Assembly: GCF_014334115.1 (NCBI RefSeq)
Contig: NZ_CP060494.1
Span: forward strand, 1,704,501 to 1,768,500
Length of the DNA: 64,000 bases
Reading direction: 5' to 3'
Origin: Sphingosinithalassobacter sp. CS137
GTDB taxonomy: Bacteria; Pseudomonadota; Alphaproteobacteria; Sphingomonadales; Sphingomonadaceae
Shown: positions 21,441-45,160 of the stretch, in pieces
Numbering within the stretch: position 1 is the stretch's first letter
Layout: each line of letters begins with the position of its first letter
Notes under the pieces: generated by a model
Databases searched by the model: none
Told to the model about the DNA's origin: nothing
What the model saw: the letters and a program-made list of their open reading frames with translations, nothing else
Made by a program: the position numbers and the translations under genes

Positions 21441-21456
21441 AATACTCAGACAAATA
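21441..21456 (+). promoter_or_regulatory. Predicted operator A of the arabinose regulon
   Basis: AATACTCAGACAAATA, centred at 21448, shares the ACTCAGACA core with three other sites in this locus and the CTCAGACA core with a fourth. It ends 18 bases before the TTG start of the ABC importer operon, close enough to cover the transcription start. The operon also encodes the FadR-type regulator, so autoregulation is likely. Confidence 0.65.
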
Positions 21457-21473
21457 TAAGAGTGGAGGATGGC

Positions 21474-22571
21474 TTGTCGGGTGTCACCCTGACGAATGTC
21501 AGCAAGGCCTATGGCGCCGTGCAGGTGATCGATCGCCTGTCGCTCGACATCGAATCCGGCGAGTTCATCGTCTTTCTGGGCCCGTCGGGCTGCGGCAAGT
21601 CGACGCTGCTGCGGATGATCGCAGGACTGGAAACCGTCGATTCGGGCGAAATCCACATCGGCACGCGGCGTGTCGACCCGCTGCCGCCCGGCGCGCGCGG
21701 GATCGCCATGGTGTTCCAGCATTACGCGCTCTACCCGCACATGACGGTGCGCGAGAATATGGCGTTCGGGCTGCGCAACGCGGGCGTGGCATCGGACGAG
21801 ATCGACCGGCGCACGCAAGCCGCTGCCGAAAGCCTCGAGATCGGCGCGCTGCTGGATCGCAAGCCCGGACAGCTTTCGGGCGGCCAGCGCCAGCGCGTGG
21901 CGATCGCGCGCGCGATCGTGAAGGAGCCCGAGCTGTTCCTTCTCGACGAGCCGCTGTCGAACCTCGACGCGGCGCTGCGGGTCCGTACCCGGCTCGAACT
22001 GGCGCAGCTTCACCAGCGGCTGCGCACCACCACCATCTTCGTCACGCACGACCAGGTCGAGGCGATGACGCTCGCCGACCGGATCGTCGTGCTCAATGCC
22101 GGCGGCATCGAGCAGATCGGCACGCCGATGGACATTTATCTGCGGCCGCGCACGCGCTTCGTCGCCACCTTCGTCGGCTCACCGACGATCAACCTGCTGC
22201 CCGCTACGCTGAGCCCTGCCTCGAACGGAGTGGCCCGTGTGCGGCTACCCGACGGCAGCGAGCTGGAGACTGGGGTGCCCACCGCGGCTTTGGGCGACAC
22301 CTCCGAACTGACGCTGGGGCTGCGTGCCGAATGCGTCCGCATCGCCGATCCGCAGTCCGCGCGGCTGCGCGGCACTGCCCGCGTGGTCGAGCGGCTGGGC
22401 GAGCGCACACTGGTCCATGTCGCGCTTCCCGACGGCACGATGCTGGTGGCCGAGGACAGCGGCGTTTCGCAGGTCCGCGCCGGAGATGCCGTGGGACTCG
22501 CGGTCGAGGGCGGCGCGGCGCATCTGTTCGATCGCGACGGCATCGGCCATCATCCGGCGGCCGCGCACTAG
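21474..22571 (+). CDS. Sugar ABC transporter ATPase (CUT1/MalK type)
   Basis: A 365-residue ATPase with Walker A GPSGCGKST, Q-loop, signature LSGGQRQRVAIARAI, Walker B LFLLDEPLSNLDAALR and a TOBE region after about residue 235, the plan of MalK/UgpC/MsmK proteins that energise oligosaccharide importers. TTG at 21474 is chosen because GGAGGA lies just upstream and the product starts with the usual SGVTLTNVSKAYG; GTG at 21462 is the alternative but has no ribosome-binding site. It is the first gene of the arabinose importer operon and follows operator A. Confidence 0.9.
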   Translation: MSGVTLTNVSKAYGAVQVIDRLSLDIESGEFIVFLGPSGCGKSTLLRMIAGLETVDSGEIHIGTRRVDPLPPGARGIAMVFQHYALYPHMTVRENMAFGLRNAGVASDEIDRRTQAAAESLEIGALLDRKPGQLSGGQRQRVAIARAIVKEPELFLLDEPLSNLDAALRVRTRLELAQLHQRLRTTTIFVTHDQVEAMTLADRIVVLNAGGIEQIGTPMDIYLRPRTRFVATFVGSPTINLLPATLSPASNGVARVRLPDGSELETGVPTAALGDTSELTLGLRAECVRIADPQSARLRGTARVVERLGERTLVHVALPDGTMLVAEDSGVSQVRAGDAVGLAVEGGAAHLFDRDGIGHHPAAAH

Positions 22572-23494
22572 TGGCCAACAGCTTCTCGGAACCGACGGCC
22601 CCGCTGCCGGCCGCATCGCTTCGCCGCCTGCCCTGGCCGGCGACCTGGGATCACGCGCTGTTCGTGCTGCCCTATCTCGCGGTGTTCGTGCTGATGCTGG
22701 TGGTGCCGCTAGCAATGGGCATCGGGCTTTCGACCACCAAGGGCGATCTGTTCGGCATCGAGGAATGGGTGGGGCTCGCCAATTTCATCCGGCTGTTCGG
22801 CGATCCGATCTTCCTCGAAACGGTGTGGAACACCTTCTATTTCGTGCTGCTGACGGTGCCCGCACTGGCGATCCTGGGGCTCGCGCTGGCGCTGGTGCTC
22901 AATCGCCAGACGCGTTGGGCGGCCGTGCTGCGCACCATCTTCTTCGCGTCGACCGTGCTGTCGGTCACGGTCGTCACGCTGGTCTGGCGGCTGGTGTTCC
23001 TGCCCGACAGCGGCCTTCTGGGAGTGCTCGCCGAAAGCGTGGGCGCCACGCCGATCGCCTTCCTCAACGACGAGGATCTTGCCATGCCGGCGATCGCAGT
23101 CACCACCATCTGGTGGTGCATCGGCCTGCCGATGGTGCTGTTCCTCGCCGCGCTCCAGCAGGTGCCGCGCGACCTCTACGAAGCCGCCGCGCTCGACAAT
23201 GCCTCGCGCTGGACGACGCTGACGAAGATCACGCTTCCGGCGATCCGCCGCACCTTCGTGCTCGTCATCATCATCGAGATCATCCTGCAGTTCCAGCTGT
23301 TCGGCCAACCGCAGCTGATGACGCTGGGCGGCCCCAACAACGCCACCCGCCCGATCGTGCTCTTCATCTACGAAGCCGGCTGGCGGCAATGGGAGCTGGG
23401 CTATGCCGCCGCCGCGGCGCAGGTGCTGTTCGTGATGATCCTGCTCGCCGCGATGGCGCAATATTGGGTATCCAGCCGGAAGGACGGTCAATGA
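22571..23494 (+). CDS. Sugar ABC transporter permease (MalF/AraP type)
   Basis: A 307-residue inner-membrane permease with six helices and the EAA loop (LYEAAALDNASRWTTLTKITLP). The GTG start at 22571 overlaps the TAG stop of the ATPase gene by one base, which fixes it. It pairs with the next gene as the heterodimeric channel of a CUT1 importer; the surrounding genes point to arabinose-containing oligosaccharides. Confidence 0.92.
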   Translation: MANSFSEPTAPLPAASLRRLPWPATWDHALFVLPYLAVFVLMLVVPLAMGIGLSTTKGDLFGIEEWVGLANFIRLFGDPIFLETVWNTFYFVLLTVPALAILGLALALVLNRQTRWAAVLRTIFFASTVLSVTVVTLVWRLVFLPDSGLLGVLAESVGATPIAFLNDEDLAMPAIAVTTIWWCIGLPMVLFLAALQQVPRDLYEAAALDNASRWTTLTKITLPAIRRTFVLVIIIEIILQFQLFGQPQLMTLGGPNNATRPIVLFIYEAGWRQWELGYAAAAAQVLFVMILLAAMAQYWVSSRKDGQ

Positions 23495-24318
23495 GCCGCC
23501 CCGGCACGAACAGTCGCATCGCGATCCTTCTGGTCGTGCTCGCCGCGGTGCTGATGCTGGTCCCGCTGCTCTGGGTGCTGGCGCTGTCGCTCAAGGCCAA
23601 TGCCGAGCTGATGACCGACACCAATTCGGTGTTCCGCGGCCCCTATACGCTGGAGAATTACCGCACGCTGTTGGGCGATGGCCAGGTGTTCCGCTGGATC
23701 GGCAACAGCCTGATCGTCTCGCTGGGGATGACGGCGGGCGTGCTGATCCTCTCGTCGCTCGCCGGCTACGGCTTTTCGCGGCTGGAGTTTCCCGGCCGCA
23801 ACGTCCTGTTCGTGGTCGTGCTGCTCGGCCTCGCCGTGCCCGAACAGGCCGTGATCATCGCGCGGCACCAGATGTTCAGCTGGGCCGAGCTGCACAACAG
23901 CTATATCGCGCTGATCCTGCCCGGCCTGTCAGCGCCGTTCGGCGTGTTCCTGATGACGCAATATTTCCGCGCCATTCCCAAGGACATCGACGAGGCGGCG
24001 CTGCTCGACGGCGCATCGCGCTTCCGCATCTTCTGGAAGCTGCTGCTGCCGCTCACGATTCCGGCTCAGGCGACGCTGGGGATCTTCACCTTTCTCTCCG
24101 CGTGGAACGACTATTGGTGGCCGCTCGTGTCGGCGACCGACAAGGACATGTTCACGCTGACCGTCGGCATCGCCTCGACCCAGATGAATTTCGCCCAGAC
24201 CGAAGGGCTCGGCTTCCTGATGGCACAGGCGGTGTTCGCCGGATTGCCGATCCTGATCGTCTATCTCTTCTTCCAGAAATATATCGTTCAGGCAGTGGCG
24301 GGAGCGGCAGGACGATGA
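23491..24318 (+). CDS. Carbohydrate ABC transporter permease (MalG/AraQ type)
   Basis: A 275-residue second permease with six membrane helices and the EAA loop IDEAALLDGASRFRIFWKLL. The N-terminus (ILLVVLAAVLMLVPLLWVLA) and the C-terminal VYLFFQKYIVQAVAGA are typical MalG-class features. ATG overlaps the previous stop (ATGA). Confidence 0.93.
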   Translation: MSRPGTNSRIAILLVVLAAVLMLVPLLWVLALSLKANAELMTDTNSVFRGPYTLENYRTLLGDGQVFRWIGNSLIVSLGMTAGVLILSSLAGYGFSRLEFPGRNVLFVVVLLGLAVPEQAVIIARHQMFSWAELHNSYIALILPGLSAPFGVFLMTQYFRAIPKDIDEAALLDGASRFRIFWKLLLPLTIPAQATLGIFTFLSAWNDYWWPLVSATDKDMFTLTVGIASTQMNFAQTEGLGFLMAQAVFAGLPILIVYLFFQKYIVQAVAGAAGR

Positions 24319-25634
24319 AGATGCGCGCCACCCTCGCCGGCATCGCCGCGCTGCTGCTCGCCGCCTGCTCGGGCGATCCCGACCCGCAGCGCACCGAACT
24401 GCGACTCCAGCGCTTCTTCGGCGCGTGCGAGGCGGAATATGGCCGGATGACCGATATTTCGAAGGCCGAGGGCGAGTGCGGGATCATGACCGCACTCATC
24501 AATCGGTTCGAAGCCGAGAACCCCGACATCGAGGTGGTCGAGAACATCGTCTTCTGGCCCGGCTACGACCAGCTGACCGCGCAGCTTGCCGCCAACGACG
24601 CCCCCGATCTGGTGACGATGCACGGATCGGTGATCGCCGATTATCAGGCGCGCGGACTGCTCGAGCCGCTGGGCGACAGCCTTGCGCGGTTCGGCGTGCC
24701 GCCCGCCGCGTTCACCGAGGCGGCACGCACGGCGGTGACGATCGACGGCACGGTGTGGGGCATGCCGATCGACACCTGGGCGCCGCTCTGGCACATCAAC
24801 ATGAACCTGTTCCGCGAGGCGGGGCTGGTCCGCCCCGACGGCTCGCCGATCCTCCCCTCCTCGCCCGAGGAGCTGTACGAACAGGCCGCGCAGTTCCGCG
24901 AGCGCACGGGCAAGCCCTATTTCGTGCAGGGCACCGCCAACGAATACGCCGCCTTCGCGCGCAACTTCTATACCTTCGTCATGCAGCAGGGCGGCACGCT
25001 CTACAGCGGCCCGCGCGAGGCGGATTTCACCACGCCGGAGGCACGACGGGCGCTCGAGCTGTTCAAGACCATCCATGACCGGAATCTGACGACCAAGAAC
25101 CAGGATTACAGCGCGGCCGTATCGGGGTTTCTCAACGGCGACGGCGGCGTGTTCCTGGTCGGCACCTGGATGGTCGGCACGTTCAATGCCGAGGCGCAGA
25201 CCGAAGGACGGCCGCTTTCCGGCGGCTATGCCGTGCGCCCCTATCCCAGCCTGTTCTCCGAGGACGTGACCTTCGCCGACGGGCACAATTGGGTGATGCC
25301 CGCCGACGACGAGCGGACGCCGGCCGAGCGCGACGCGGCACTGCGCTTCCTGAAATTCTTCGCCGAACAGGATGGCGAATGGGCGCGCACCGGCCATCTG
25401 CCCGCATTTCAGGCAGTGATCGACAGCCCGCAGTGGCGCGCCCTGCCCCATCGCGCGGAGCTTGCCAGCCTGGCCGAGAACGCGCGGCCGCTGCGCAAGG
25501 ATCTGCGCCGCCAGTTTCCGATCGAAACGATCGTCGGTCAGGAAGCCGCCGCCGCCATTTCCGGCGCCAAGCCGATCGACCGGGCGCTCGCCGACATGGA
25601 GCGGCGGGTGAACGCCATTCTCCAGAACCTGTAG
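24315..25634 (+). CDS. Extracellular sugar-binding lipoprotein of the ABC importer
   Basis: A 439-residue substrate-binding protein. MKMRATLAGIAALLLAAC is a lipoprotein signal with Cys18. The mature part has the cluster B binding-protein pattern: ALINRFEAENPDIEVVENI, VWGMPIDTWAPLWHINMNLF, and a C-terminal FLKFFAEQDGEWARTGHLPA. In a Gram-negative this would sit in the periplasm, either inner- or outer-membrane bound. It overlaps the MalG-type gene by 4 bases. A signal-lipidated binding protein is less common in Gram-negatives than a free one. Confidence 0.9.
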   Translation: MKMRATLAGIAALLLAACSGDPDPQRTELRLQRFFGACEAEYGRMTDISKAEGECGIMTALINRFEAENPDIEVVENIVFWPGYDQLTAQLAANDAPDLVTMHGSVIADYQARGLLEPLGDSLARFGVPPAAFTEAARTAVTIDGTVWGMPIDTWAPLWHINMNLFREAGLVRPDGSPILPSSPEELYEQAAQFRERTGKPYFVQGTANEYAAFARNFYTFVMQQGGTLYSGPREADFTTPEARRALELFKTIHDRNLTTKNQDYSAAVSGFLNGDGGVFLVGTWMVGTFNAEAQTEGRPLSGGYAVRPYPSLFSEDVTFADGHNWVMPADDERTPAERDAALRFLKFFAEQDGEWARTGHLPAFQAVIDSPQWRALPHRAELASLAENARPLRKDLRRQFPIETIVGQEAAAAISGAKPIDRALADMERRVNAILQNL

Positions 25635-25651
25635 GATTCAAGGAACCCCTC

Positions 25652-27160
25652 ATGCTCAAGTCCCGCGTGATCGCCGACCGCGACTTCGTGATCGCCCCGC
25701 TCGACCGTCGCGTGTTCGGCAGCTTCGTCGAGCATCTCGGCCGCTGCGTCTATGGCGGCATCTACGAGCCCGGCCATCCGACCGCGGACGCGAACGGCTT
25801 TCGCGGCGACGTGCTTGCGCTCACGCGCGAGCTGGGGGTGAGCATCGTTCGCTATCCGGGCGGCAATTTCGTTTCGGGCTATGATTGGGAAGACGGCGTC
25901 GGCCCGAAGGAGGAGCGGCCGGTGCGCCTCGATCTCGCCTGGGGATCGACCGAGACCAATCAGTTCGGCACCAACGAGTTCATGGACTGGTGCAAGGCGG
26001 CGGACGTCGAGCCGATGTTCGCGGTCAATCTCGGCACCCGCGGCCCCGCCGAGGCGCAGAACTTCCTCGAATATTGCAACCATCCGGGCGGGACCTACTA
26101 CGCCGACCTGCGCAAGAGCCACGGCTATGAGAAGCCGCACGACATCAAATTCTGGTGCCTGGGCAACGAGATGGACGGACCCTGGCAGACCTGCGCGAAG
26201 ACGGCGCAGGAATATGGCCGGATCGCCACCGAGACGGCCAAGGTCATGCGCTGGACCTCCGACGGTCTCGTCCTGTCCGCCTGCGGCTCGTCGCATCGCG
26301 ACATGCCGACCTATGGCGCGTGGGAATATGACGTGCTCGACCATTGTTTCGAGCATGTCGATTTCATCTCGCTCCACCAATATTTCGAGAACCATGAGGA
26401 CGACATCACGCTGTTCCTCACGGTGATCGACAAGCTCGATCGCTTCATCACCGAAGTGACCGCGATCGCCGATTCGGTCGCGGCCAAGCGGCGCTCCGAC
26501 AAGCGGATCATGCTCTCGGTCGACGAGTGGAACGTGTGGTACCGCGCGCGGTCGGGCGAGCAGCTGCGCGGAGTGGGTTGGCCCGAGGCGCCGAAGCTGC
26601 TCGAGGAAATCTACAATTTCGAGGACGCGCTGATCGTCGGCGGCGCGCTGCTCACGATGATGAACCATTCCGACCGGGTGCAGGCGGCGTGCATCGCGCA
26701 GCTCGTCAACGTCATCGGGCCGATCATGACCGAAACCGGCGGCCCGGCCTGGCGGCAGACGATCTTCCACCCCTTCGCGCAGGCGGCGCGCTTCGGCCGC
26801 GGCAATGTGCTGCGCGCCAAGGTGGAGACCGGCAGCTTCGCGGCGGGCACGATCGAGGACGCGCCGCTGCTGGTCAGCACCGTCGTCCACGATCCCGAGA
26901 CCGGCACCGCGACCGTCTTCGCGCTCAACCGCAGCACCGATCAGGAGATGCAGCTCGACGTCGAACTGCGCGGCATGGGCACCCGGGCATTGGTGCAGGC
27001 GGAGGAGCTGCACCACGCCGATCTGAAGGCGATCAACTCCAAGGATGCCCCCGAAACGGTGGCGCCGATTGCCCATCCTGCCGCCGAGCTGCGGAACGAC
27101 GGTCTTTCGGCGACGCTGAAGCCGCTGTCGTGGAATGTCTTCGTCACGAAGGCCGCATGA
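25652..27160 (+). CDS. Cytoplasmic alpha-L-arabinofuranosidase, GH51
   Basis: A 502-residue enzyme with no signal peptide that releases terminal alpha-L-arabinofuranose from oligosaccharides. GH51 landmarks: FGSFVEHLGRCVYGGIYEPG, RYPGGNFVSGYDWEDGVGP, acid/base Glu173 in CLGNEMDGPW and nucleophile Glu292 in SVDEWNVWYRA, at the spacing known from characterised GH51 enzymes. It follows the binding-protein gene by 17 bases, so the ABC importer and this hydrolase form one uptake-and-cleavage unit. An exported paralogue lies at 37359-38906. Confidence 0.95.
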   Translation: MLKSRVIADRDFVIAPLDRRVFGSFVEHLGRCVYGGIYEPGHPTADANGFRGDVLALTRELGVSIVRYPGGNFVSGYDWEDGVGPKEERPVRLDLAWGSTETNQFGTNEFMDWCKAADVEPMFAVNLGTRGPAEAQNFLEYCNHPGGTYYADLRKSHGYEKPHDIKFWCLGNEMDGPWQTCAKTAQEYGRIATETAKVMRWTSDGLVLSACGSSHRDMPTYGAWEYDVLDHCFEHVDFISLHQYFENHEDDITLFLTVIDKLDRFITEVTAIADSVAAKRRSDKRIMLSVDEWNVWYRARSGEQLRGVGWPEAPKLLEEIYNFEDALIVGGALLTMMNHSDRVQAACIAQLVNVIGPIMTETGGPAWRQTIFHPFAQAARFGRGNVLRAKVETGSFAAGTIEDAPLLVSTVVHDPETGTATVFALNRSTDQEMQLDVELRGMGTRALVQAEELHHADLKAINSKDAPETVAPIAHPAAELRNDGLSATLKPLSWNVFVTKAA

Positions 27161-27203
27161 CAGCGCAGTTGTGCCAGGCGGGAAGGAGGCGGTAGAAGGA
27201 AGC

Positions 27204-27989
27204 ATGCCGCCTGCTCCCAAGACTTCGAAAGCCGAGGACGCGCAGACGCGACGCAAATCGCTGCGCATCCATGGCGCGATTGCCCGCGATCTGGGAGTGC
27301 TGATCGTCTCCGGCCGCTACAAGCCGGGCGAGGTGCTGAACGGCGAAGTGGCGGCGAGCGGCCGGCTACAGGTCTCGCGCACCGCCTATCGCGAGGCGCT
27401 GCGCATCCTCGCGGCGAAGGGCCTCGTCGAATCGCGGCCCAAGACGGGCACGCGGGTGAGCCCGCGAGCGAAATGGCATTTGCTCGATCCCGACGTGCTC
27501 TCTTGGATCTTCGAGTTCGAGCCCGACGAGCATCTGCTCTCCAGCCTGTTCGAGCTGCGCCGGCTGATCGAACCCGAGGCGGCCGCTTTCGCTGCGCGGC
27601 GGCGAACGACTCGCCACCTCGACGAAATGGCACGCGCGCTCGAGGGAATGGCGACGCACACTCTGGCGTCCGAAGAAGGGCGCGTAGCCGATCAGGATTT
27701 CCACGCCGCGCTGCTCGATGCGTCCGGCAATCCCTTTCTGGCGACGCTGACCAGCGGCGTCGGCGCCGCAGTCGCCTGGACGACGATCTTCAAGCAGCGC
27801 AATTCACCGCTGCGCCGTGATCCCGTTCCCGATCACCAGCGCGTGTTCGACGCAGTCGCAGCAGGCGATGCCGATGCCGCGCGCCTGGCGATGTCCGAGC
27901 TCGTCGACATGGCGTTCCTCGACACCACCCGCTCGCAAGCGCCGAAGGTTCGGATCGCCCGCAGCGCGGCGCTCGACGCGCCGGAATAG
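27204..27989 (+). CDS. FadR-subfamily GntR transcriptional regulator (predicted arabinose regulator)
   Basis: A 261-residue DNA-binding protein. Residues 18-90 form the winged helix (ARDLGVLIVSGRYKPGEVL, RTAYREALRILAAKGLVESR, PKTGTRVSP). Residues 110-240 form an FCD effector domain (ELRRLIEPEAAAFAARR, DQDFHAALLDASGNPFLATL, DHQRVFDAVAAGDADAARLA) with the Asp and His residues that usually bind metal and a small acid. AAGGA precedes the ATG at 27204. It is the last gene of the ABC operon and the only regulator in the locus, so it is the best candidate to bind the CTCAGACA sites. The effector could be a pathway acid or L-arabinose; unknown. Confidence 0.9.
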   Translation: MPPAPKTSKAEDAQTRRKSLRIHGAIARDLGVLIVSGRYKPGEVLNGEVAASGRLQVSRTAYREALRILAAKGLVESRPKTGTRVSPRAKWHLLDPDVLSWIFEFEPDEHLLSSLFELRRLIEPEAAAFAARRRTTRHLDEMARALEGMATHTLASEEGRVADQDFHAALLDASGNPFLATLTSGVGAAVAWTTIFKQRNSPLRRDPVPDHQRVFDAVAAGDADAARLAMSELVDMAFLDTTRSQAPKVRIARSAALDAPE

Positions 27990-28125: not shown

Positions 28126-29451
28126 TCAGACCGCGGGCGCCGCCGTCTCGCTGTTCTTGATCTCGTGCGTCGGCTTGCTGCCCCACAGCGCATAGAAGAG
28201 CACATAGAGCTCGCACGCGGCAGTGAGCAGGAACGACATCTGCAGCCCGTAGAGATCGGCGAGCCAGCCCTGCACGACCACCAGTGCGCCGCCGGCGATC
28301 GCCATGATGAGCAGACCCGACCCTTCCTCGGTCAGCGGCCCGAGGCCGCGGATGCCGAGGGTGAAGATCGTCGGGAACATGATCGAGTGGAACAGCCCCA
28401 CCAGGATCAGCGACCACATCGCCACCGAGCCGGTCGTGAAGACGGTCAGCATCATCACCACGAAGGCGCCGATGCTGGCCCAGGCGAGCACCGCCTCGGG
28501 CCGGACGGCCTGCATGATGAAGCTGCCGGCGAATCGGCCGACCATCATCCCGCCCCACAGCAGGAAGAGATAGTTGGACGCCTGAGCGTGCGTGAGATTG
28601 CCGATTTCGGGCGCCGAGATGAAGTTGATGAAGAGGTTCGAAACGCCGATCTCGGCAATGAGATAGATGAAGATGGCCGGGACGCCGAACACGAGGTTGC
28701 GGTGCCGCCAGAGCGAATGGCCCTTGCGCTCCTCGCGCGAGGCCCGCCGCGTCGCCGAGCCCATGTCGGGCAGGCGGAACTTGGCGATGACGATGGCCAG
28801 GACGAGCAGGACGCCGGCGACGATCAGATAGGGCAGCTGCACCGACTGCGCATCGGCGAGCCGCTCGGCCTCGGTCAGCACGCGCCCAGCCTCGGCGGTT
28901 CCCGAGGTCGTGCGGCTGAGGATCAGATAGCCGCCGAACAGCGGCGCGAGCGTGGTACCGAGCGAATTGAACGCCTGCACCAGATTGAGCCGCGACGAAG
29001 CGGTTTCCGGCGGACCGATCACCGCGACATAGGGGTTCGCCGCGACCTGGAGCAGCGTGATCCCGCTGGCGATTACGAACAGGGCGAACAGCGTAACGGC
29101 ATAGGAAGGGATCGCCGAAGCCGGAATCATCATCAGCGCGCCGCCGGCCATCACCATCAGACCGGTCACCATTGCCTTCTTGTAGCCGATCCGCTCGATC
29201 AGCTTGGCCGATGGGATCGAGGCGACGAAATAGGCGATGAACCAGACGCTCTCGATCAGCGTGGTCTGGGTATAGGTGAGATCGAACACGCTGCGCAGGT
29301 GCGGCAGCAACGTGTTGTTGATGACGGTGATGAAGCCCCAGATGAAGAAGAGCGACGCGAGCACCCCGAGCGCCGCCCGATACACGGGGTAGGCGCCGCC
29401 GGTCGTGGAATCCGTCTTGCCGGCGCTCAGGTCCGGTGCGGGTGCGGGCAT
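28126..29451 (-). CDS. Sugar MFS permease, FucP family
   Basis: A 441-residue, 12-helix proton symporter. The N-terminal LASLFFIWGFITVINNTLLP and QVAANPYVAVIGPPETASSRLNLVQAFNSLG (here in two parts) are the marks of the FucP fucose/glucose/galactose group. AGGAAGAGGA before the ATG at 29451 fixes the start. It lies downstream of the GH43 gene, 22 bases away, so the likely substrate is free L-arabinose or a related monosaccharide produced in the periplasm. That specificity is inference from context. Confidence 0.9.
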   Translation of the reverse strand: MPAPAPDLSAGKTDSTTGGAYPVYRAALGVLASLFFIWGFITVINNTLLPHLRSVFDLTYTQTTLIESVWFIAYFVASIPSAKLIERIGYKKAMVTGLMVMAGGALMMIPASAIPSYAVTLFALFVIASGITLLQVAANPYVAVIGPPETASSRLNLVQAFNSLGTTLAPLFGGYLILSRTTSGTAEAGRVLTEAERLADAQSVQLPYLIVAGVLLVLAIVIAKFRLPDMGSATRRASREERKGHSLWRHRNLVFGVPAIFIYLIAEIGVSNLFINFISAPEIGNLTHAQASNYLFLLWGGMMVGRFAGSFIMQAVRPEAVLAWASIGAFVVMMLTVFTTGSVAMWSLILVGLFHSIMFPTIFTLGIRGLGPLTEEGSGLLIMAIAGGALVVVQGWLADLYGLQMSFLLTAACELYVLFYALWGSKPTHEIKNSETAAPAV

Positions 29452-29473
29452 TCTGGGGTCCTCTTCCTTGAGA

Positions 29474-30577: not shown

Positions 30578-30599
30578 ACCGATCACTCCGTGCCTTCCG

Positions 30600-30633
30600 A
30601 AAAAAGGCCGGCGGCACCCGAGGATGCCGCCGG
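30600..30633 (-). terminator. Rho-independent terminator after the TonB receptor gene
   Basis: On the minus strand, CCGGCGGCA/TGCCGCCGG (a 9-bp stem with an 8-base loop) follows the stop at 30648 by about 15 bases and is followed by six T residues. It sits 23 bases before the GH43 start, so GH43 and MFS expression depends on read-through or on a promoter overlapping this hairpin. Confidence 0.8.
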
Positions 30634-30647
30634 AGACAGGGAAGGAC

Positions 30648-33618: not shown

Positions 33619-33635
33619 ATTTCTCAGACATTTCG
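33619..33635 (+). promoter_or_regulatory. Predicted operator C, weaker auxiliary site
   Basis: CATTTCTCAGACATTTC keeps CTCAGACA but lacks the preceding TTA. It lies 57 bases (centre to centre) from site B and 122 from site D, in the same divergent region. It may help two operators act together. Confidence 0.45.
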
Positions 33636-33740: not shown

Positions 33741-33756
33741 ATATGTCTGAGTAATT
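33741..33756 (-). promoter_or_regulatory. Predicted operator D, before the catabolic operon
   Basis: ATATGTCTGAGTAATT is the reverse complement of AATTACTCAGACATAT. Centred at 33748, it ends 36 bases before the TTG start of the semialdehyde dehydrogenase gene, the first gene of the rightward operon. Confidence 0.65.
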
Positions 33757-35366: not shown

Positions 35367-35415
35367 ACTCGCCCCACAGGGGCGCAAGAACAGAAGCTAC
35401 GAAAGGAAGGATGGG

Positions 35416-36396: not shown

Positions 36397-37313
36397 GCGC
36401 GGTGAAGATCGCACTTGTGGGCATCGGCAAGATTGCCCGCGACCAGCATGTGCCGACGATCGCAGCAACCGACCGGTTCGAGCTCGTCGCCGCCGTCACC
36501 GGCCATACGCCGCCCGAGGGCGTTCCCGGTTTCCGCACGATCACCGAAATGATGGCCGCGATGCCCGAAGTGGAGGCGGTGTCGATCTGCACGCCGCCGC
36601 GCGGGCGCCGTCCGCTGATCGCGGAAGCGCTGGCGCACGGCCTCGACGTGATGATCGAGAAACCGCCCGCCGCCACGGTCAGCGAAGCGGAGACCTTTGC
36701 CAAGATGGCCGCCGACGCCGGCCGCATCCTCTACGCCACCTGGCATTCGCGCGAAGCGGCGGGCGTCGAGCCTGCACGCAAATGGCTCGAAGGCTGCACC
36801 ATCCGGCGCGTCGAAGTGAACTGGAAGGAAGACGTGCGCGTCTGGCATCCGGGGCAGGACTGGATCTGGGAGCCCGGCATCGGCGTGTTCGATCCGGGCA
36901 TCAATGCGCTGTCGGTGCTGACCCACATCCTGCCCGAACCGCTGCTGCTGCAGTCCGCCGAGCTGCGCTTTCCGTCGAACAAGCCGGCGCCGATCGCCGC
37001 CGACCTGGCGTTCGATCATGCCGGCACGCCGGTCGAGGTGTTCTTCGACTTCGACCAGCGCGGGCCGCAGACCTGGGACATCGATGTCGAGACCGACGAC
37101 GGGCATCTGAAGCTGTCGCTGGGCGCCTCGAAGCTCGCGATCGACGGCGAACCCGTCGATGTCGGCGACGAGACCGAATATGGCCGCCTCTATCGCCATT
37201 TCGCCGAGCTGCTCGAGCGCCGCACGAGCGACGTCGATCTGCGCCCCTTCCACCATGTCGCCGATGCCTTTCTGCTGGGCCGGCGCAAGACGGTGGGGCC
37301 GTTCGAAGAATAG
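36393..37313 (+). CDS. L-arabinose/D-galactose 1-dehydrogenase (Gfo/Idh/MocA family)
   Basis: A 306-residue cytoplasmic NAD(P)-dependent enzyme that would oxidise L-arabinose to L-arabino-lactone. N-terminal Rossmann motif ALVGIGKIARDQHVP, then MIEKPPAATVSEAE (the EKP motif), WHSREAAGVEPARKWL and WHPGQDWIWEPGIGVFDPGI with the catalytic Asp/His region. These segments closely resemble the Azospirillum L-arabinose 1-dehydrogenase as I recall it. It starts with GTG overlapping the araD1 stop (GTGA). Confidence 0.9.
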   Translation: MSAVKIALVGIGKIARDQHVPTIAATDRFELVAAVTGHTPPEGVPGFRTITEMMAAMPEVEAVSICTPPRGRRPLIAEALAHGLDVMIEKPPAATVSEAETFAKMAADAGRILYATWHSREAAGVEPARKWLEGCTIRRVEVNWKEDVRVWHPGQDWIWEPGIGVFDPGINALSVLTHILPEPLLLQSAELRFPSNKPAPIAADLAFDHAGTPVEVFFDFDQRGPQTWDIDVETDDGHLKLSLGASKLAIDGEPVDVGDETEYGRLYRHFAELLERRTSDVDLRPFHHVADAFLLGRRKTVGPFEE

Positions 37314-37358
37314 TGTCGGTCCGCCCGGTCGAGGCGGCAGAGTCTAGGGAGAGGTTGA

Positions 37359-38906
37359 ATGAAATTGCTCAAGCGGTTCCTCCTGCCATTCGCGGCCACT
37401 GCCGCGCTGGCGGCACCGGCGAGCGCGCAACAAGCGCCCGCGACCGTGCGTGTGACGGTGGACTCCGAAAATCCGGGCGCCCGGATCGAACCTGCCATCT
37501 ATGGCCAGTTCGCCGAGCATCTGGGCCGCGGCATCTACGAAGGGATCTGGGTGGGCGAGGATTCGCCGATTCCCAACACCAACGGCTATCGCAACGATGT
37601 GCTCGCAGCGCTGCGCCGCCTCCAGGTGCCGGTGATCCGCTGGCCCGGCGGCTGCTTCGCCGACGAATATGACTGGCGCGACGGCATCGGCCCACGCGAC
37701 CAGCGGCCGGTGCGCGTCAACAGCCACTGGGGCGGCGTCACCGAAGACAACAGCTTCGGTACGCATGAATTCATGAATTTCACCGAGATGCTGGGCGCCG
37801 ACGCCTATGTCGCCGGCAACATGGGATCGCTGCCGCCGATCGAGATGGGCCGCTGGGTCGAATATATGACTTCGGACAGCCAATCGACGCTGGCCAACGA
37901 GCGCCGCGCGAACGGCCGCGAAGAGCCGTGGAAGGTGAAATATTTCGGCGTCGGCAACGAAAGCTGGGGCTGCGGCGGCAACATGCGGCCCGAATATTCG
38001 GCCGACCTGCACCGGCGCTACCAGACCTTCGTCAAGACGCCGTGGGGCACCGATCCGATCGTGAAGGTCGCCACCGGCGCGAACATCGACGATTATAATT
38101 TCACCGAAGTGCTGATGCGCGAAGCGCGCAACCACATGAACGCGATCAGCATCCACTATTACACCTTCCCCGGCAGCTGGGAGGACAAGGGCCCGGCAAC
38201 CGGCTTCCCGGTCGAGAAATGGGCCTCCACACTCCACAATGCGCGGCGGATGGACGAGCTGGTGACTCGCCACAGCGCGATCATGGATCGCTATGATCCG
38301 GAGAATCGAGTCGCGCTGTTCGTCGACGAATGGGGCACCTGGTACGATCAGGAGCCGGGATCGACGCCGGGCTTCCTCTATCAGCAGAACACGCTGCGCG
38401 ACGCCCATGTCGCGGCGCTGACGCTCAACATCTTTCACCGCCACACCGAGCGCGTGAAGATGGCCAACATCGCCCAGATGGTGAACGTCCTTCAGGCGAT
38501 GATCCTGACCGACGGCGAGCGGATGGTGCTGACGCCGACCTATCACATCTTCGACATGTACATGCCCTTCCGGGGGGCGACTCCCCTGCCCGCACAGGTC
38601 GAGGGGCCGAATTATACCCAAGGCGAGTATGAGATGCCGATGGTCGACGTTTCCGCTGCCCGCGGCACCGACGGCAAGCTCTACCTCTCGCTGGTTAACG
38701 TCGATCCCGAGCGCCCGGCGCGCATCGAGACGGGGCTCACCGGTCGCGCGACGGGCCGGATCCTGACCGGGCCGGAGCTCGATACCCGCAACACCTTCGA
38801 CCGGCCGAACACCATTCAGCCGGTCGCCTATCAGGGCACCACCCACAACGGCCGCCTCGCCTTCGACCTGCCGGCGAAGTCGATCGCAGTCGTCGCGGTG
38901 GAGTAA
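37359..38906 (+). CDS. Exported alpha-L-arabinofuranosidase, GH51
   Basis: A 515-residue periplasmic enzyme. The signal peptide (MKLLKRFLLPFAATAALAAP...ASAQQ) distinguishes it from the cytoplasmic GH51 at 25652-27160. PAIYGQFAEHLGRGIYEGIW, IRWPGGCFADEYDWRDGIGP, Glu201 (GVGNESWGCGG, acid/base) and Glu324 (VDEWGTWYDQ, nucleophile) are intact. It should remove arabinofuranose side chains in the periplasm. It is 45 bases after the dehydrogenase and 5 bases before the GH127 gene. Confidence 0.95.
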   Translation: MKLLKRFLLPFAATAALAAPASAQQAPATVRVTVDSENPGARIEPAIYGQFAEHLGRGIYEGIWVGEDSPIPNTNGYRNDVLAALRRLQVPVIRWPGGCFADEYDWRDGIGPRDQRPVRVNSHWGGVTEDNSFGTHEFMNFTEMLGADAYVAGNMGSLPPIEMGRWVEYMTSDSQSTLANERRANGREEPWKVKYFGVGNESWGCGGNMRPEYSADLHRRYQTFVKTPWGTDPIVKVATGANIDDYNFTEVLMREARNHMNAISIHYYTFPGSWEDKGPATGFPVEKWASTLHNARRMDELVTRHSAIMDRYDPENRVALFVDEWGTWYDQEPGSTPGFLYQQNTLRDAHVAALTLNIFHRHTERVKMANIAQMVNVLQAMILTDGERMVLTPTYHIFDMYMPFRGATPLPAQVEGPNYTQGEYEMPMVDVSAARGTDGKLYLSLVNVDPERPARIETGLTGRATGRILTGPELDTRNTFDRPNTIQPVAYQGTTHNGRLAFDLPAKSIAVVAVE

Positions 38907-38911
38907 GCGCA

Positions 38912-41263
38912 ATGCTGTCGCGCCGCGGCTTCCTGGGTTCGGCGAGCGCGCTTGCGCTCGCCGGCCCCGCGCTCGCCGCGGCGCACGCGGCTCCCGATGA
39001 ACGGGTGCGTGCCGCCCCGCTGCCGTTGCATGCGGTTCGGCTCGGTCCCTCCCCCTACCGCACCGCGGTCGAGGCAAATGGCCGGGTACTGCTCGCGCTC
39101 GAGCCCGACCGGCTGCTCCACAATTTCCACGCCAGCGCCGGCCTGCCGCCCAAGGGCGACGTCTATGGCGGCTGGGAGGCACGCGGCATCGCGGGCCATT
39201 CGCTCGGACACTATCTCACCGCCTGTGCGCTCCAATATGCGCAGACAGGCGACCCGGCCTTCCGCGAGCGCCTGGCCTATACCGTGGCCGAACTCGCCCG
39301 CTGCCAGGCGGCGCATGGCGACGGCTATGTCGGCGGCACCACCGTCGAGCGCGACGGTGCAGTCGTCGACGGCAAGATCATCTTCGAGGAGGTTCGCCGC
39401 GGCGACATCCGCACCGGCGGCTTCGACGTCAACGGCGGCTGGGTGCCGCTCTATACCTGGCACAAGGTGCACGCCGGGCTGATCGACGCGATCCGGCTCG
39501 GCGACGTCGAGCCCGCGCATCCCGTCCTGCTCGGCATGGCAGGCTATCTCGGCACCATCCTGGAAGGGCTGTCGGACGAGCAGATGCAGCAACTGCTCGT
39601 CGCCGAATATGGCGGGCTGAACGACAGCTATGCCGAGACCTATGCCCTGACCGGCGACCCGCGCTGGCTGCGCATCGCCGAGCGGATCCGCGACCGGCGC
39701 GTGCTCGACCCGCTGACCGCGCAGCGCAACATCCTGCCCGGGCTCCACGCGAACACCCAGATTCCGAAGCTGATCGGCCTTGCGCGGCTCTACGAGCTGA
39801 CCGGCGACCCCGCGCATGCGCAGGCGGCACGCTATTTCCGCGACACGGTGGTGAACCACCACAGCTATGTGATCGGCGGCAATTCGGACCGCGAGCATTT
39901 CGGGCCGCCCGACATCCTCTCGCCCTATATCACCGATCGCACCTGCGAGGCGTGCAACAGCTACAACATGCTCAAGCTCACCCGGCATTTGTGGAGCTGG
40001 GCGCCCGACGCCGCGCTGTTCGATTTCTACGAGCGCGTGCATCTCAATCACATTCTCGGGCACCAGCATCCCGAAACCGGCATGTACAATTATTTCATGC
40101 CGCTCAGCCCGGGCTCGCGGCGGACCTGGTCGACGCTCGAGGACAGTTTCTGGTGCTGCTTCGGCTCGGGGATGGAAAGCCACGCCAAGCATGGCGATTC
40201 GATCTACTGGCAGGGCGACGACACGCTGTTCGTCAATCTGTTCATTCCCTCCGAGGCGCGCTGGGCCGAACGCGGGCTCAAGGTGGCGCTCGAAACCCGC
40301 TACCCGGATGCGGAGGACGTCCATCTGGTCGTCGCCGAGGCGCCGGACGCGCCGCTGGCGATGGCGCTGCGCCTTCCCGGCTGGGCGGAAGCGCCCGCGC
40401 TGCTGCTGAACGGCAGCCCTGCGGCGTTCGATCGGCGGAGCGGCTATGCCGTGCTCACCCGACGCTGGAGCCCGGGCGACCGGCTGACGCTGCACCTGCC
40501 GATGGCGCTGCGCACCGAAGCGACGCCGGACGATCCGAGCATCGTCGCATTCGTCAATGGCCCGATAGTGCTGGCCGCCGATCTCGGCCCGGCGGACACG
40601 CCGACGTTCGAGGGACTGCCCCCCGCGATCGTTGCCGATACGCCGACGAGCGCCGCACGCGCGACCGGCGAAGCGCACCGCTTCGCGCTGCCCGGCGTTC
40701 GGCCCGAGGGGCTCTCGCTCGTTCCCTTCCATCGCCAGCATGACCGGCGCAGCGCAGTCTATTTCCCCGTCTTCACCGCCGCCCAATGGGCCGAGGAGGA
40801 GGCGGGGTTCGTCGCCGCCGAACGGGCACGCGCCGCACTCGCCGCGCGGACGGTGGACGTGCTGCATCTGGGCGAAATGCAGCCCGAGCGCGATCATGGC
40901 TTCCGCGCGAACCACGCCGATCTCCTCTCCTGGCAGGGACGCGCCGGGCGTCAGGCCTGGTGGGGCGTCGGCAACTATATGGAGTTCGATCTCGCCGTGC
41001 GGCCGGGGCCGATGGTGCTCCAGGCGCTCTATTGGGGCGAGGAAGTCGACAAGCACTTCGTCATCTCGGTCGACGGCCAGCCGATCGCGACCGAGCGCCG
41101 GGCGAGCGCGCCGGTGCGCGCGTTCGTGACGGCGACCTATCCGCTTCCCGAGGCGCTGACGCGCGGCAAGGAGCGCGTCACCGTGCGGTTCGAAACCAAG
41201 GGGACAGACGCTCCCGTTTACGAGGTTCGGATGCTCGAGGCGGCCACGGCCCCGGACGCCTGA
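38912..41263 (+). CDS. Beta-L-arabinofuranosidase, GH127, Tat-exported
   Basis: A 783-residue enzyme for beta-linked L-arabinofuranose. The N-terminus MLSRRGFLGSASALALAG is a twin-arginine signal, fitting a zinc protein folded before export. The helical barrel carries the GH127 zinc/cysteine site: Glu346 and Cys348 in TCEACNSYNML, and Cys415-Cys416 in SFWCCFGSGMESHAKH, where one Cys is the nucleophile in the characterised HypBA1. A C-terminal beta domain (YMEFDLAVRPGPMVLQALYW) follows. Last gene of the rightward operon, 11 bases from the convergent lactonase stop. Confidence 0.93.
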   Translation: MLSRRGFLGSASALALAGPALAAAHAAPDERVRAAPLPLHAVRLGPSPYRTAVEANGRVLLALEPDRLLHNFHASAGLPPKGDVYGGWEARGIAGHSLGHYLTACALQYAQTGDPAFRERLAYTVAELARCQAAHGDGYVGGTTVERDGAVVDGKIIFEEVRRGDIRTGGFDVNGGWVPLYTWHKVHAGLIDAIRLGDVEPAHPVLLGMAGYLGTILEGLSDEQMQQLLVAEYGGLNDSYAETYALTGDPRWLRIAERIRDRRVLDPLTAQRNILPGLHANTQIPKLIGLARLYELTGDPAHAQAARYFRDTVVNHHSYVIGGNSDREHFGPPDILSPYITDRTCEACNSYNMLKLTRHLWSWAPDAALFDFYERVHLNHILGHQHPETGMYNYFMPLSPGSRRTWSTLEDSFWCCFGSGMESHAKHGDSIYWQGDDTLFVNLFIPSEARWAERGLKVALETRYPDAEDVHLVVAEAPDAPLAMALRLPGWAEAPALLLNGSPAAFDRRSGYAVLTRRWSPGDRLTLHLPMALRTEATPDDPSIVAFVNGPIVLAADLGPADTPTFEGLPPAIVADTPTSAARATGEAHRFALPGVRPEGLSLVPFHRQHDRRSAVYFPVFTAAQWAEEEAGFVAAERARAALAARTVDVLHLGEMQPERDHGFRANHADLLSWQGRAGRQAWWGVGNYMEFDLAVRPGPMVLQALYWGEEVDKHFVISVDGQPIATERRASAPVRAFVTATYPLPEALTRGKERVTVRFETKGTDAPVYEVRMLEAATAPDA

Positions 41264-41274
41264 GGCGGCGCACC

Positions 41275-42147
41275 TCAGCCGGCGTAGAGATTGGGGGCGA
41301 GGCCGCGAACGCCGGCGTCGACTTCAAACAGGGCACCGGCGAGCGGCTCGAACGCGCGGCCGTCGGCGGCCGAGGTGACGAACATCCGATCGAGATCCGG
41401 GCCTGCGAAACAGACATTGGTGATCTGAGTCGCCGGCAGAGTGATCGCCCGCTCGCGCACGCCGTCGGGCGTGAAGCGGCTCACGCAGGCGCCGCCCCAA
41501 TGCGCGATCCAGAGGCCGCCCTCGGCGTCGACGGTCATCCCGTCGGGCTTGCCCCATTCGCGGTCGAAGCGGATGAACGGCTCGCGGTCCGTCGCCGTGC
41601 CCCCCTCGCCCAGCCGGAAGCGGTAGACGATGCCGAGCCCGGTGTCGGTGTGATAGAGCCAGCGGCCTTCGGGGCAGAAGGCGGGGCCATTGGCGACGAT
41701 ATAGCCTTCGTCGATCCGGCGGACGCTGCGGTCGGGTTCGAGGCAATGAAGGCCGCCGGTGGGGCGATCGGCGCTCACCGGCATCGATCCGGCCCAGATC
41801 CGCCCGTCGCGGTCGGCTTTCGCATCGTTGAGGCGATTGTCCGGCAGATCGGGTTCGGGATCGGCGATGGGGCGGATCTCCACGCGGTCGCCGTGGATCT
41901 CCAGCTCGGCAAAACCGCTCTGGAGCCCCGCGATCAGCCCCGGCGCATCGCGGCGGCCGATCACCCAACCGATCATCTCGGGAACGTCCCAGCGGCGCAC
42001 CTCGCCGCTGTCGAGCGCCAGCCGGTTGAGCGCCTGGCCGAGAATGTCGGTCCAGTAGACGGCATTCTCGCGCGCCGACCAGAACAGGCCCTCGCCCAGC
42101 CGATCGCGGACCGCGCCGCGCTCGATCACGCGATAATGCGCGCCCAT
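41275..42147 (-). CDS. L-arabinolactonase (SMP-30/gluconolactonase family)
   Basis: A 290-residue six-bladed propeller that would hydrolyse L-arabino-1,4-lactone to L-arabonate. Metal-site segments: LGEGLFWSARENAVYWTDI (Glu), LNDAKADRDGRIWAGSM (Asn) and KPDGMTVDAEGGLWIAHW (Asp). Other family members act on gluconolactone, but the neighbours (arabonate dehydratase and 1-dehydrogenase) fit arabinolactone. GAGGAG lies eight bases before the ATG at 42147. Third gene of the leftward operon from operator E. Confidence 0.92.
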   Translation of the reverse strand: MGAHYRVIERGAVRDRLGEGLFWSARENAVYWTDILGQALNRLALDSGEVRRWDVPEMIGWVIGRRDAPGLIAGLQSGFAELEIHGDRVEIRPIADPEPDLPDNRLNDAKADRDGRIWAGSMPVSADRPTGGLHCLEPDRSVRRIDEGYIVANGPAFCPEGRWLYHTDTGLGIVYRFRLGEGGTATDREPFIRFDREWGKPDGMTVDAEGGLWIAHWGGACVSRFTPDGVRERAITLPATQITNVCFAGPDLDRMFVTSAADGRAFEPLAGALFEVDAGVRGLAPNLYAG

Positions 42148-42157
42148 CCCGCTCTCC

Positions 42158-43978
42158 TCAGTGATTATGCCGCGGCACGCCGACGGTCTGCGCCAGCCGC
42201 TGATACTTGACCGAATTCTCGAGCACCGCGCCGGTTTCCAGCTGTCCGGTGACGCCGCGCTGCAGCTCCTGCCACGGGGTCTGGCTCGCCGGGAACGGGA
42301 AGCCGCCGTTTGCCGCCAGCTCCTCGCGGCGGCGGGCAAGCTCCTCGTCGGAGATCAGGATGTTCGCTTCACCCTTGTTGAGATCGACCCGCACCCGATC
42401 GCCGGTCCGGAGCAGCGCCAGTCCCCCGCCTGCCGCCGCTTCGGGCGAAGCGTTGAGGATCGACGGGCTTCCCGACGTGCCCGACTGGCGCCCGTCGCCG
42501 ATGCACGGCAGCGCCTGAACCCCCGCCTTGATCAGCTTCACCGGCGGCCGCATGTTCACCACTTCGGCCGCGCCCGGATAGCCGATCGGCCCGGCGCCGC
42601 GCATGATCAGCAGCGTGTGCTCGGTGACGTCGAGATCGGGATCGTCGATCCGCGCGTGATAATCCTCGGGCCCGTCGAACACGATTACCGGCCCTTCAAA
42701 GGCGTTCGGATCGTCCGGGTTCTGGAGGTAGCGCTTGCGGAAATCGTCGGAGATCACCGATTGTTTCATGATCGCGCTGTCGAACAGGTTGCCGCGCAGC
42801 ACCGAGAAGCCGGCCGCAGGGCGCATCGGCCGATCATAAGGCAGGATCACCCGCTCGTCCTCGATCGTCGCATCGCGGCAATTGTCGCCGATGCTGCGAC
42901 CGTTCACCGTCAGCGCGCCTTCGTGGATCAGCCCCTGCGCGATGAGCTGGGCGACCACCGCGGGAACGCCGCCGGCGCGATAATAATCCTCGCCGAGGAA
43001 TTCGCCCGCCGGCTGGAGGTTCACCAGCAACGGGATGTCGCGGCCATAGGTCTGCCAGTCGTCGATGCCGAGATCGACGCCGATGTGGCGGGCGATGGCG
43101 TTGAGATGGATCGGCGCGTTGGTCGAGCCGCCGATCGCCGAATTGACTCGGATCGCGTTGAGGAACGCCTCGCGCGTCAGGATGTCGGACGGCTTGCGAT
43201 CGGCATGCACCATCTCGACGATCTGCTTGCCGGTTTCGTACGCCACTTCCTGGCGATCGCGATAGGGCGCGGGAATCGCCGCCGAACCGGGCAGCGACAT
43301 GCCCAGCGCCTCGGTCAGCGAGTTCATCGTCGTCGCCGTGCCCATCGTGTTGCAATAGCCGGTCGACGGCGCCGAGCTGGCGACCAGCTTGATGAAGCCC
43401 TGATAGTCGATCTCGCCCGCGGCGAGCAGCTCGCGCGCTTTCCACACGATCGTGCCGGAGCCCGTGCGCTCACCCTTGTGCCAGCCGTTGAGCATCGGCC
43501 CGACCGACAGCGCGATCGCCGGGATGTTCACCGTCGCCGCGGCCATCAGGCAGGCCGGCGTCGTCTTGTCGCAGCCGGTGGTGAGCACCACGCCGTCGAG
43601 CGGGTAGCCGAACAGTATTTCGACCAGCCCCAGATAGGCCAGGTTGCGGTCGAGCCCGGCGGTCGGGCGCTTCCCCGTTTCCTGGATCGGATGGACCGGA
43701 AACTCGATCGCGATCCCGCCGGCCTCGCGCACGCCTTCGCGGACGCGCTCGGCGAGCACCAGATGGTGTCGATTGCAGGGGCTGAGATCGCTGCCCGTCT
43801 GCGCGATGCCGATGATCGGCTTGCCCGACTGCAGCTCGGCGAGCGACAGGCCGAAGTTCATGTAGCGCTCCAGGTAGAGCGCGGTCATGTCGGCATTCGT
43901 CGGGTCGTCGAACCAGGCGCGCGACCGCAGCTTGCGGGGCTCGGCGCCGGACGGTGGCGTGCTGTCGTGGGAAGTCAT
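42158..43978 (-). CDS. L-arabonate dehydratase (IlvD/Edd family)
   Basis: A 606-residue Fe-S dehydratase converting L-arabonate to L-2-keto-3-deoxyarabonate. Cluster ligands lie in [26 protein letters not shown] and [18 protein letters not shown], where the Ser of [10 protein letters not shown] is the catalytic base region of sugar-acid dehydratases. [20 protein letters not shown] is a further family signature. Length and sequence features suit the sugar-acid branch (about 570-610 residues) and not dihydroxyacid dehydratase IlvD itself. ATG shares one base with the mutarotase stop (TGATG). Confidence 0.94.
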
Positions 43979-45120
43979 CAATTACTCGCAACGGAGAAGC
44001 GCAGCACCATGGTGTTGCTGTAGGTCTCGCCGGGATTCAGACGCGCGGTCGGAAAGCTCGGCTGGTTCGGGCTGTCGGGGAAGACCTGCGGCTCGAAGCA
44101 CAGCCCGTCGCCCTGGCGATAGATGCGCCCGCCCTTGCCGGTCACGGTGCCGTCGAGGAAATTGCCCGAATAGAATTGCAGGCCGGGAGCATCGCTTTCG
44201 ATTTCCATCACTCGGCCCGATACCGGATCCTCGAGCCGGACGGCGGGACGCAGGGCACCCGAAGCGCCGTCGAGCACATAATTGTGATCATAGCCGCGCC
44301 CGATGCGGATCTGCTCGTTATGTCCGTTGCGGATCCGCTCGGCGATGACGGTCGGCGCGCGGAAATCGAAGGGAGTACCTTCGACGGGACGCAGTTCGCC
44401 GGTCGGGATCAGCGTCTCGTTCACCGGCGTGAAGCGCGAGGCATTCAGCGTCAGCCGCTGCGACACGGCGGCGGGCGCATCGATCGCGCCGCCGGCGAGA
44501 TTGAAGAAGCTGTGATTGGTGATGTTCACCACCGTCGGCGCGTCCGTGACCGCGCCATATTCAATCTTGAGCTCATTGGCTTCGTTGAGCGTGTAGGTCG
44601 CGGTGGCGACCAGCGTGCCCGGATAGCCGCCTTCGCCGTCGGGGCTGCGATAGCTGAGCACCACCTTCGCCTCGGGACCGCTGGTGACCGAGGTGATCGT
44701 CCAGACCCGCTTGTCGAACCCGGCGACACCGCCATGGAGATGGTTCGGCCCGTCGTTGGTTTCGAGCGTGAAGCGCTGGCCGTCGAGGCTGAAGCTGCCG
44801 CCGGCGATGCGATTGGCATAGCGGCCGACGGTGGCGCCGAAATATTGCGGATTCTCGAGATATTCGGCGGCGGTGTCGTAGCCGAGCACCACGTCGGCGA
44901 CATTCCCGTCGCGATCGGGCACCATCAGCGCCTGGAGCGTCGCACCCAGCGTCATCACCGTTGCCGACATACCGTTGGCGTTGGTCAGTGTGACCTTCTC
45001 GATCGGCGTGCCGTCCGCGAGCGTTCCGAACGCTTCGCGCGTCGCGTCAGCCGCCTGCGCCGGCGCGCTCATCACGAGCGCCATTGCGAGGCCGAGCGCC
45101 CCAGAAATCCTGCCAGCCAA
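43978..45120 (-). CDS. Aldose 1-epimerase (galactose mutarotase), exported
   Basis: A 380-residue mutarotase that interconverts sugar anomers. A signal peptide ([20 protein letters not shown]...QA) puts it in the periplasm, where it can act on arabinose released by the exported hydrolases. Family motifs: [15 protein letters not shown], the substrate His in [25 protein letters not shown] with the catalytic His, and [11 protein letters not shown]. The start is TTG with GGGAGAGG eight bases ahead; no in-frame ATG would keep the signal peptide. First gene of the leftward operon. Confidence 0.92.
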
Positions 45121-45144
45121 TGCACCTCTCCCGCTGTCATGCTC

Positions 45145-45160
45145 ATTTACTCAGACAATT
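45145..45160 (+). promoter_or_regulatory. Predicted operator E, before the mutarotase operon
   Basis: ATTTACTCAGACAATT, centred at 45153, ends 25 bases before the TTG start of the mutarotase-dehydratase-lactonase operon. The rest of 45161-45371 shows nothing else that I can support; it should also contain the promoter of the divergent DJ-1/PfpI gene. Confidence 0.65.

Follow-up and report, generated by a model that had tools for sequence, protein, structure and literature searches.

Putative operators of a FadR-type GntR repressor in front of the L-arabinose and arabinan genes of Sphingosinithalassobacter sp. CS137

The arabinose locus of Sphingosinithalassobacter sp. CS137 (Sphingomonadaceae) lies in a stretch of 64,000 nucleotides (contig NZ_CP060494.1, positions 1,704,501 to 1,768,500), referred to here as the window, and raises the question of what controls its transcription units together. 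Four such units were delimited by gene order and spacing, namely an ATP-binding cassette (ABC) transporter operon, a TonB-receptor operon, a catabolic operon and a mutarotase operon. The reading preferred here, with a probability of about 0.85, is that five short sites in front of these units are operators of a FadR-type GntR repressor encoded at 27204-27989, which would control the use of arabinose and of plant arabinans.

The core CTCAGACA is found exactly five times in the window on both strands, at 21445 (+), 33566 (+), 33623 (+), 33744 (-) and 45150 (+), compared with 1.04 expected copies and a maximum of four in 100 shuffles. An earlier sequence-only reading had given the centres of five sites and had seen no further copy; all five 15-bp sites agree exactly with its positions, and no other core is present on either strand. 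Operator A (21441..21455, +; AATACTCAGACAAAT) is located upstream of the ABC operon and overlaps the predicted -10 element. Operator B (33562..33576, +; ATTACTCAGACAAAA) lies immediately 3' of the predicted -10 element of the TonB-receptor operon, and operator C (33619..33633, +; ATTTCTCAGACATTT), 57 bp from operator B, lies upstream of the predicted -35 element of the same operon. Operator D (33741..33755, -; ATTACTCAGACATAT) overlaps the predicted -10 element of the catabolic operon and operator E (45146..45160, +; TTTACTCAGACAATT) that of the mutarotase operon. The earlier assignment of the sites to the four units holds, with two sites at the TonB-receptor operon and one at each of the others. 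When the window was scored with a matrix of 48 pattern-selected sites from relatives, none of them from the window, operators A to E took the top five scores (25.3-30.4 bits; next score 8.5), and none of 60 Markov-1 simulated windows reached 25.3 bits (best 20.8). The sites share the layout ATT-nn-TCAGA-ca-AAT, in which ATT..TCAGA..AAT is symmetric around a central A and the inner flanking dinucleotide is asymmetric. Inspection of the sites thereby confirms the description of symmetric outer and inner positions and asymmetric middle ones. The AT-flanked operator consensus of about 15 bp is WWTTGTCTGASTWWT, or AWWASTCAGACAAWW on the opposite strand.

In the 3.19-Mb genome, WWWNNTCAGACAWWW has six matches and its reversed control none. 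All six precede arabinose genes or a glycoside hydrolase family 43 (GH43) gene, and the scan for matches at unrelated genes thus did not refute the proposed regulon. The sixth match, at G000:C1:1266966, is found about 0.46 Mb from the window and 39 bp before the GH43 gene (L044:419-1462; G000:C1, ~1265.9-1266.9 kb; PF04616, 218 bits); the start of its other neighbor resembles threonyl-tRNA synthetase by eye. The predicted regulon includes this distant gene and reaches beyond the locus. It had been called local, which is right in that the four window operons have sites and too narrow in view of the sixth. A looser pattern with at most two mismatches gave 14 genomic matches versus four in the control, and CTCAGACANNT gave eight versus two, three of the eight being located outside the window and lacking the AT-flanked pattern. 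A GH43 relative in Peristeroidobacter (L134) has a site 297 bp upstream, according to a home-made gene call.

Related loci were collected by a scan of genome contigs with one genome per species. This yielded 29 loci with a regulator relative of 50-79% identity, chiefly from Sphingomonadales and Steroidobacteraceae (Gammaproteobacteria) with some unclassified metagenome-assembled genomes. Exact CTCAGACA is found within 10 kb in 19 of the 29 loci (40 sites). The ten loci without it were considered as a contradiction, which was dismissed once the two asymmetric positions were relaxed: nine of them hold TCAGACA variants in which AG, CA or AA replaces AC, mostly at ABC, AraD1 or regulator promoters. 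A site is encoded immediately ahead of the regulator gene in L025, L027, L028, L030, L035 and L037 and, as a variant, in L021, L023 and L026. De novo motif discovery in 80 promoters, which were picked by gene homology and blind to the motif, returned TTTTGTCTGAGTAATAA with a log-likelihood ratio (LLR) of 548 versus 43-60 in ten mononucleotide-shuffled sets; as divergent genes share sites, some are counted twice. More than 15 bits were reached by 54 of the 80 promoters (hand count). In a simple 8-mer enrichment of the 29 loci, CTCAGACA was not in the top 25, and words like TGTAATAG ranked above it; from the repeated contexts of their copies, these words were taken for probable conserved coding sequence. 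Closely similar arabinose clusters with the regulator are found in Sphingomonadales and Steroidobacteraceae (among L015-L043), which suggests a transfer of the cluster between classes. In one metagenome-derived locus (L042:10001-10726), the regulator match has an in-frame stop inside the matched range.

A GntR gene is present in 27 of the 29 neighborhoods and is the sole recognized regulator among the 20 protein families common to at least four of them, four unlabelled families of these 20 having been judged by eye alone. A different regulator, encoded elsewhere in the genome, could nevertheless bind the sites, with the GntR protein serving another role. Co-localization alone is no proof of binding, the operator falls short of a complete FadR-type palindrome, and some pattern excess over the control occurs in genomes without a close homolog. 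Such a regulator is quite improbable, however, as motif and GntR regulator recur jointly in two classes, where some sites stand right in front of the gene for this regulator, as the shared families hold no other recognized candidate, and as the excess over the control is greatest where an orthologue is present (see below). Cross-genome co-occurrence, the sites before the regulator genes of relatives and a TTGTC half-site, which is described next, uphold the choice of the GntR protein as the likely binder, and the GntR/FCD protein very probably binds the sites.

The regulator carries an N-terminal GntR winged helix (PF00392, 43.1 bits, cut-off 27) and a C-terminal FCD domain (PF07729, 86.2 bits, cut-off 24.3). 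Only these two domains were detected, and the domain search of the regulator gave no LacI/GalR-type sugar domain. The AlphaFold2 model, of medium confidence (mean predicted local distance difference test score, pLDDT, 72.8; predicted template modelling score, pTM, 0.57), has a helical C-terminal half. Those of its fold matches that are listed are largely GntR-family regulators, with the DgoR C-terminal domain at rank 34; of the solved structures, E. coli DgoR (7C7E) matches best (E 9.4e-30). The residues D163, H167 and H211 are the same in all 20 aligned proteins and align to DgoR Asp146/His150/His195, described as the DgoR metal triad in an excerpt of PMC7674646. Because of this DgoR-like Asp/His/His triad and the general habit of FadR-type proteins, a sugar acid is suggested as the effector. 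On the DNA side, the FadR-type operator consensus is given as TKGT-N3-ACMA in part of PMC4494728, where the operators of the FadR subfamily (LldR, DgoR, ExuR) have in common with the present one an AT-rich site of odd length, a TTGT box and a 3-bp spacer. The difference is that one box is strict here: the TTGT (TTGTC) half is nearly invariant, whereas the second half is mostly AGTA or ACTA. The same source states that Arg at helix-turn-helix position 28 (FadR Arg35) prefers G. The residue at this place is Val or Ile and the corresponding operator base is T, and the replacement of Arg by Val/Ile fits T instead of G in the operator.

The placement of the sites bears on the sign of regulation. 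The -10 and -35 hexamers and their spacings were assigned by eye in aligned promoters. The predicted -35 hexamer of the ABC operon, TTGACA, lies at 21416..21421 (+), and TTGAC is kept in all eight aligned ABC promoters; in these eight, the operator starts 15-19 bp past the -35 hexamer, on the -10 element. The operators of the catabolic and mutarotase operons likewise overlap probable -10 elements. Because the sites overlap or abut predicted -10 elements, the GntR protein is most likely a repressor. It might instead act as an activator or in both ways, with site C activating and the -10 sites being secondary. Site C is located upstream of the predicted -35 element of the TonB-receptor operon and has counterparts in L020, L024 and L029, and some FCD regulators activate, for example CitO in the part of the literature covered. 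Activation is nonetheless unlikely, since the single sites of the ABC, catabolic and mutarotase operons overlap predicted -10 elements, a position suited to repression. The same overlap could mean that the sites are conserved core-promoter or leader elements and not operators at all. This is very hard to maintain for a motif that is found in both orientations, at varied distances and, at site C, upstream of the -35 element, that has just six occurrences genome-wide and that, in relatives, precedes other arabinan-type genes at many places.

With the GntR protein as a repressor, the predicted course of events is as follows. Without arabinose, the protein would occupy the ~15-bp site on or next to the -10 element of each promoter and so block RNA polymerase. 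The genes silenced would be those for uptake by the TonB receptor and the ABC and FucP-like transporters, for the enzymes that cleave arabinan and arabinosides (GH43, GH51 and GH127) and for the oxidative breakdown of L-arabinose, together with the operon that encodes the regulator; the distant GH43 gene would fall under the same control. An intermediate of the pathway, with a sugar acid such as L-arabonate or L-2-keto-3-deoxyarabonate (L-KDA) as the likeliest candidate, would release the repressor. At the TonB receptor, the second site 57 bp upstream may reinforce repression by cooperative binding.

Pattern matches in whole genomes were counted against a reversed-pattern control. The 28 genomes behind the related loci have 140 matches versus seven in the control. 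Among 199 genomes of the family, the five with an orthologue of at least 70% identity have 35 matches versus one, the 37 with a homolog of 47-60% have 52 versus 13, and the 157 without a close homolog have 212 versus 84. The excess over the control is by far largest in the orthologue-bearing genomes. The exact string ATTACTCAGACA occurs in four of the five orthologue, five of the 37 homolog and four of the 157 other genomes. Flanking sequences were fetched for most sites that lie away from the main loci, except for a few immediately next to them, and 85 sites were examined (four of these belonging to L159, a main-type locus, and one to the CS137 genome), with genes from a simple home-made caller. 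Of these, 80 fall outside predicted genes. Recurrent neighbors are TonB receptors (22 entries, some being the same protein for adjacent sites), GH43 proteins (9, 2 and 2), major facilitator superfamily (MFS) transporters (5), Gfo/Idh proteins (3) and a regulator paralogue (3), and by eye mutarotases (4) and GH51 (4 entries); representative neighbor proteins were verified with Pfam. An identical site, TATTCTCAGACAAAT, is present in six Sphingomonas genomes (L100, L103, L110, L112, L118, L125). In five of the six, the closest gene predicted downstream encodes a cupin, and four of the six copies overlap a different predicted gene at its edge. In the Steroidobacteraceae loci L133, L139 and L148, a second GntR/FCD regulator is encoded divergently from a TonB receptor, and near it lie a site with the exact core and one of a near-symmetric TTTGTCSGACA type.

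A further 20 loci comprise L160, around the orthologue of a genus-mate, and 19 around homologs of 53-60%. An IlvD or AraD1 homolog is nearby in 19 of the 20; in L162, the matches are limited to GH51, GH43 and, weakly, TonB. Ten of the sister loci, most of which lack an AT-flanked site with a central A, gave the de novo motif TATTTACTCGGACAAAT (LLR 330 versus 43-56 in shuffled sets) and the nine others ATTTGTCTGAGTATATA (LLR 258 versus 41-50); L172 and L176 were kept in the set of ten despite TCAGACA sites, and L160 is in neither set. One sister clade thus differs in its operator centre, which is mostly C/G there, and also in a residue of the recognition helix, residue 67. Loci L163, L167, L169-L173, L175 and L176 combine C/G-centred operators (such as ACTCSGACA) with Gln67 in place of Arg67, and L172 and L176 additionally hold A- or T-centred sites. 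Counted over 50 rows, with ties settled by which site came first (L133, L172 and L176 are examples), the centre is A/T in 36 of 38 Arg67 rows and C/G in nine of 12 Gln67 rows, a joint variation that favors the proposed pairing of regulator and site. Omitted were L039, L040, L042 and L160, which have no recognized site, and the distant paralogue L038_16395. The 12 Gln67 rows form one clade, and the Fisher value therefore overstates the association; L042, with Gln too, sits outside. Residue 60 (Thr/Ser) had been considered as the cause of the changed centre, which residue 67 (Arg/Gln) tracks better. The C/G-centred variant explains in part why the 37 homolog-bearing genomes show no clear excess of the A-centred pattern.

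Several observations weigh against control of these promoters by the GntR protein. The promoter elements were assigned by eye, with the weakest case at the TonB promoter, and the second operator half departs from the FadR box (A-G/C-T-A versus ACMA). Among the 29 loci, the scan of L040 gave no TCAGACA site; of the 20 further loci, the genus-mate locus L160 has a single weak one. Less than 15 bits were scored by 26 of the 80 promoters, chiefly those of GH43 and regulator genes, which are probably operon-internal. The 37 homolog-bearing genomes show no clear excess (P 0.07), and the reversed pattern is not neutral, with a 2.5-fold excess even without a close homolog. For 13 of the 85 sites, no gene was predicted to start at most 500 bp away, and several neighbors have no evident sugar role; examples recognized by eye are a sensor protein at L088 and a protein like a sigma-54 activator at L094. 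Finally, operator centre and residue 67 covary through what is nearly a single evolutionary event.

The data permit a more far-reaching view, which is put forward tentatively and remains doubtful: the operator may be inherently asymmetric, with the TTGTC half demanded and AC, AG, CA, TC and others tolerated in the second, and kept so from Alpha- to Gammaproteobacteria; the regulator may head a widespread, class-crossing arabinose/arabinan regulon; and in one clade the centre may have shifted from A/T to C/G as the recognition helix changed. If this holds, the subunits of the dimer would read DNA differently, or the relaxed half would be constrained by something else, for instance the -10 element. 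The idea that the left half is fixed because of its -10 role at the ABC promoter was rejected as a general account. The operator is reversed at the other promoters, and the -10 role therefore cannot be the general reason for the asymmetry.

The kind of system is already known and ordinary. The regulon itself is not described in the literature searched, subscription papers and regulon databases being outside that search. The closest solved structure, E. coli DgoR (PDB 7C7E), is a FadR-type repressor of D-galactonate use whose triad is kept here; the window regulator differs in that its neighbors form an L-arabinose/arabinan regulon of several transcription units with no dgo operon and in an operator with one relaxed half, the remaining pocket residues having been compared by eye. 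Halomonas AraR2, described in an excerpt of PMC5507952 as a genome-predicted GntR-family regulator of L-arabinose/L-arabonate genes, is alike in family and in the predicted control of oxidative L-arabinose genes. It is unlike in taxon and in a gene content with a tripartite ATP-independent periplasmic (TRAP) transporter, and the two were likened by description. B. subtilis AraR, as far as covered in part of PMC4494728, shares the GntR-type winged helix and an arabinose/arabinan regulon but has a LacI/GalR-type effector domain in contrast to the FCD domain here. If the GntR protein acts as proposed, sphingomonads and Steroidobacteraceae would gain a defined L-arabinose/arabinan regulon with a precise operator. 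The site alone would then allow transporters and glycosidases of undefined substrate to be proposed as arabinose genes, such as the distant GH43 gene, and the variants of regulator and operator would form a natural series for how FCD repressors read DNA.

The transcription units themselves are composed as follows. The ABC operon (21462..27160, +) encodes a MalK/UgpC-like ATPase, two permeases, a solute-binding protein and a GH51-type arabinofuranosidase. The regulator gene (27204..27989, +), proposed to encode the binder of all sites, follows 43 bp 3' of the GH51 gene and by spacing closes this operon (21462-27989). Site A had been said to precede the regulator; it does precede the ABC operon, and the regulator gene is about 5.7 kb away as its last gene. 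From this operon structure, we infer autoregulation in the window. The TonB-receptor operon (28126..33497, -) encodes a TonB-dependent receptor, a GH43 arabinanase-like protein and a FucP/GluP-like MFS transporter. The catabolic operon (33792..41263, +) encodes an aldehyde dehydrogenase family protein, an AraD1 family protein (L-KDA dehydratase family), a Gfo/Idh-like dehydrogenase (weak match), GH51 and GH127, and the mutarotase operon (41275..45120, -) an aldose 1-epimerase, an IlvD-family dehydratase and an SMP-30 lactonase. AraD1 exceeds its NCBIfam cut-off (518.8 versus 340 bits). The arabinonate-dehydratase, AbnA and semialdehyde-dehydrogenase models score under theirs, and the exact steps of the oxidative L-arabinose pathway are therefore deduced from the gene set. 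One permease of the ABC operon was assigned by Pfam and the second by position and size, and the ATPase may start at TTG 21474, after GGAGG.

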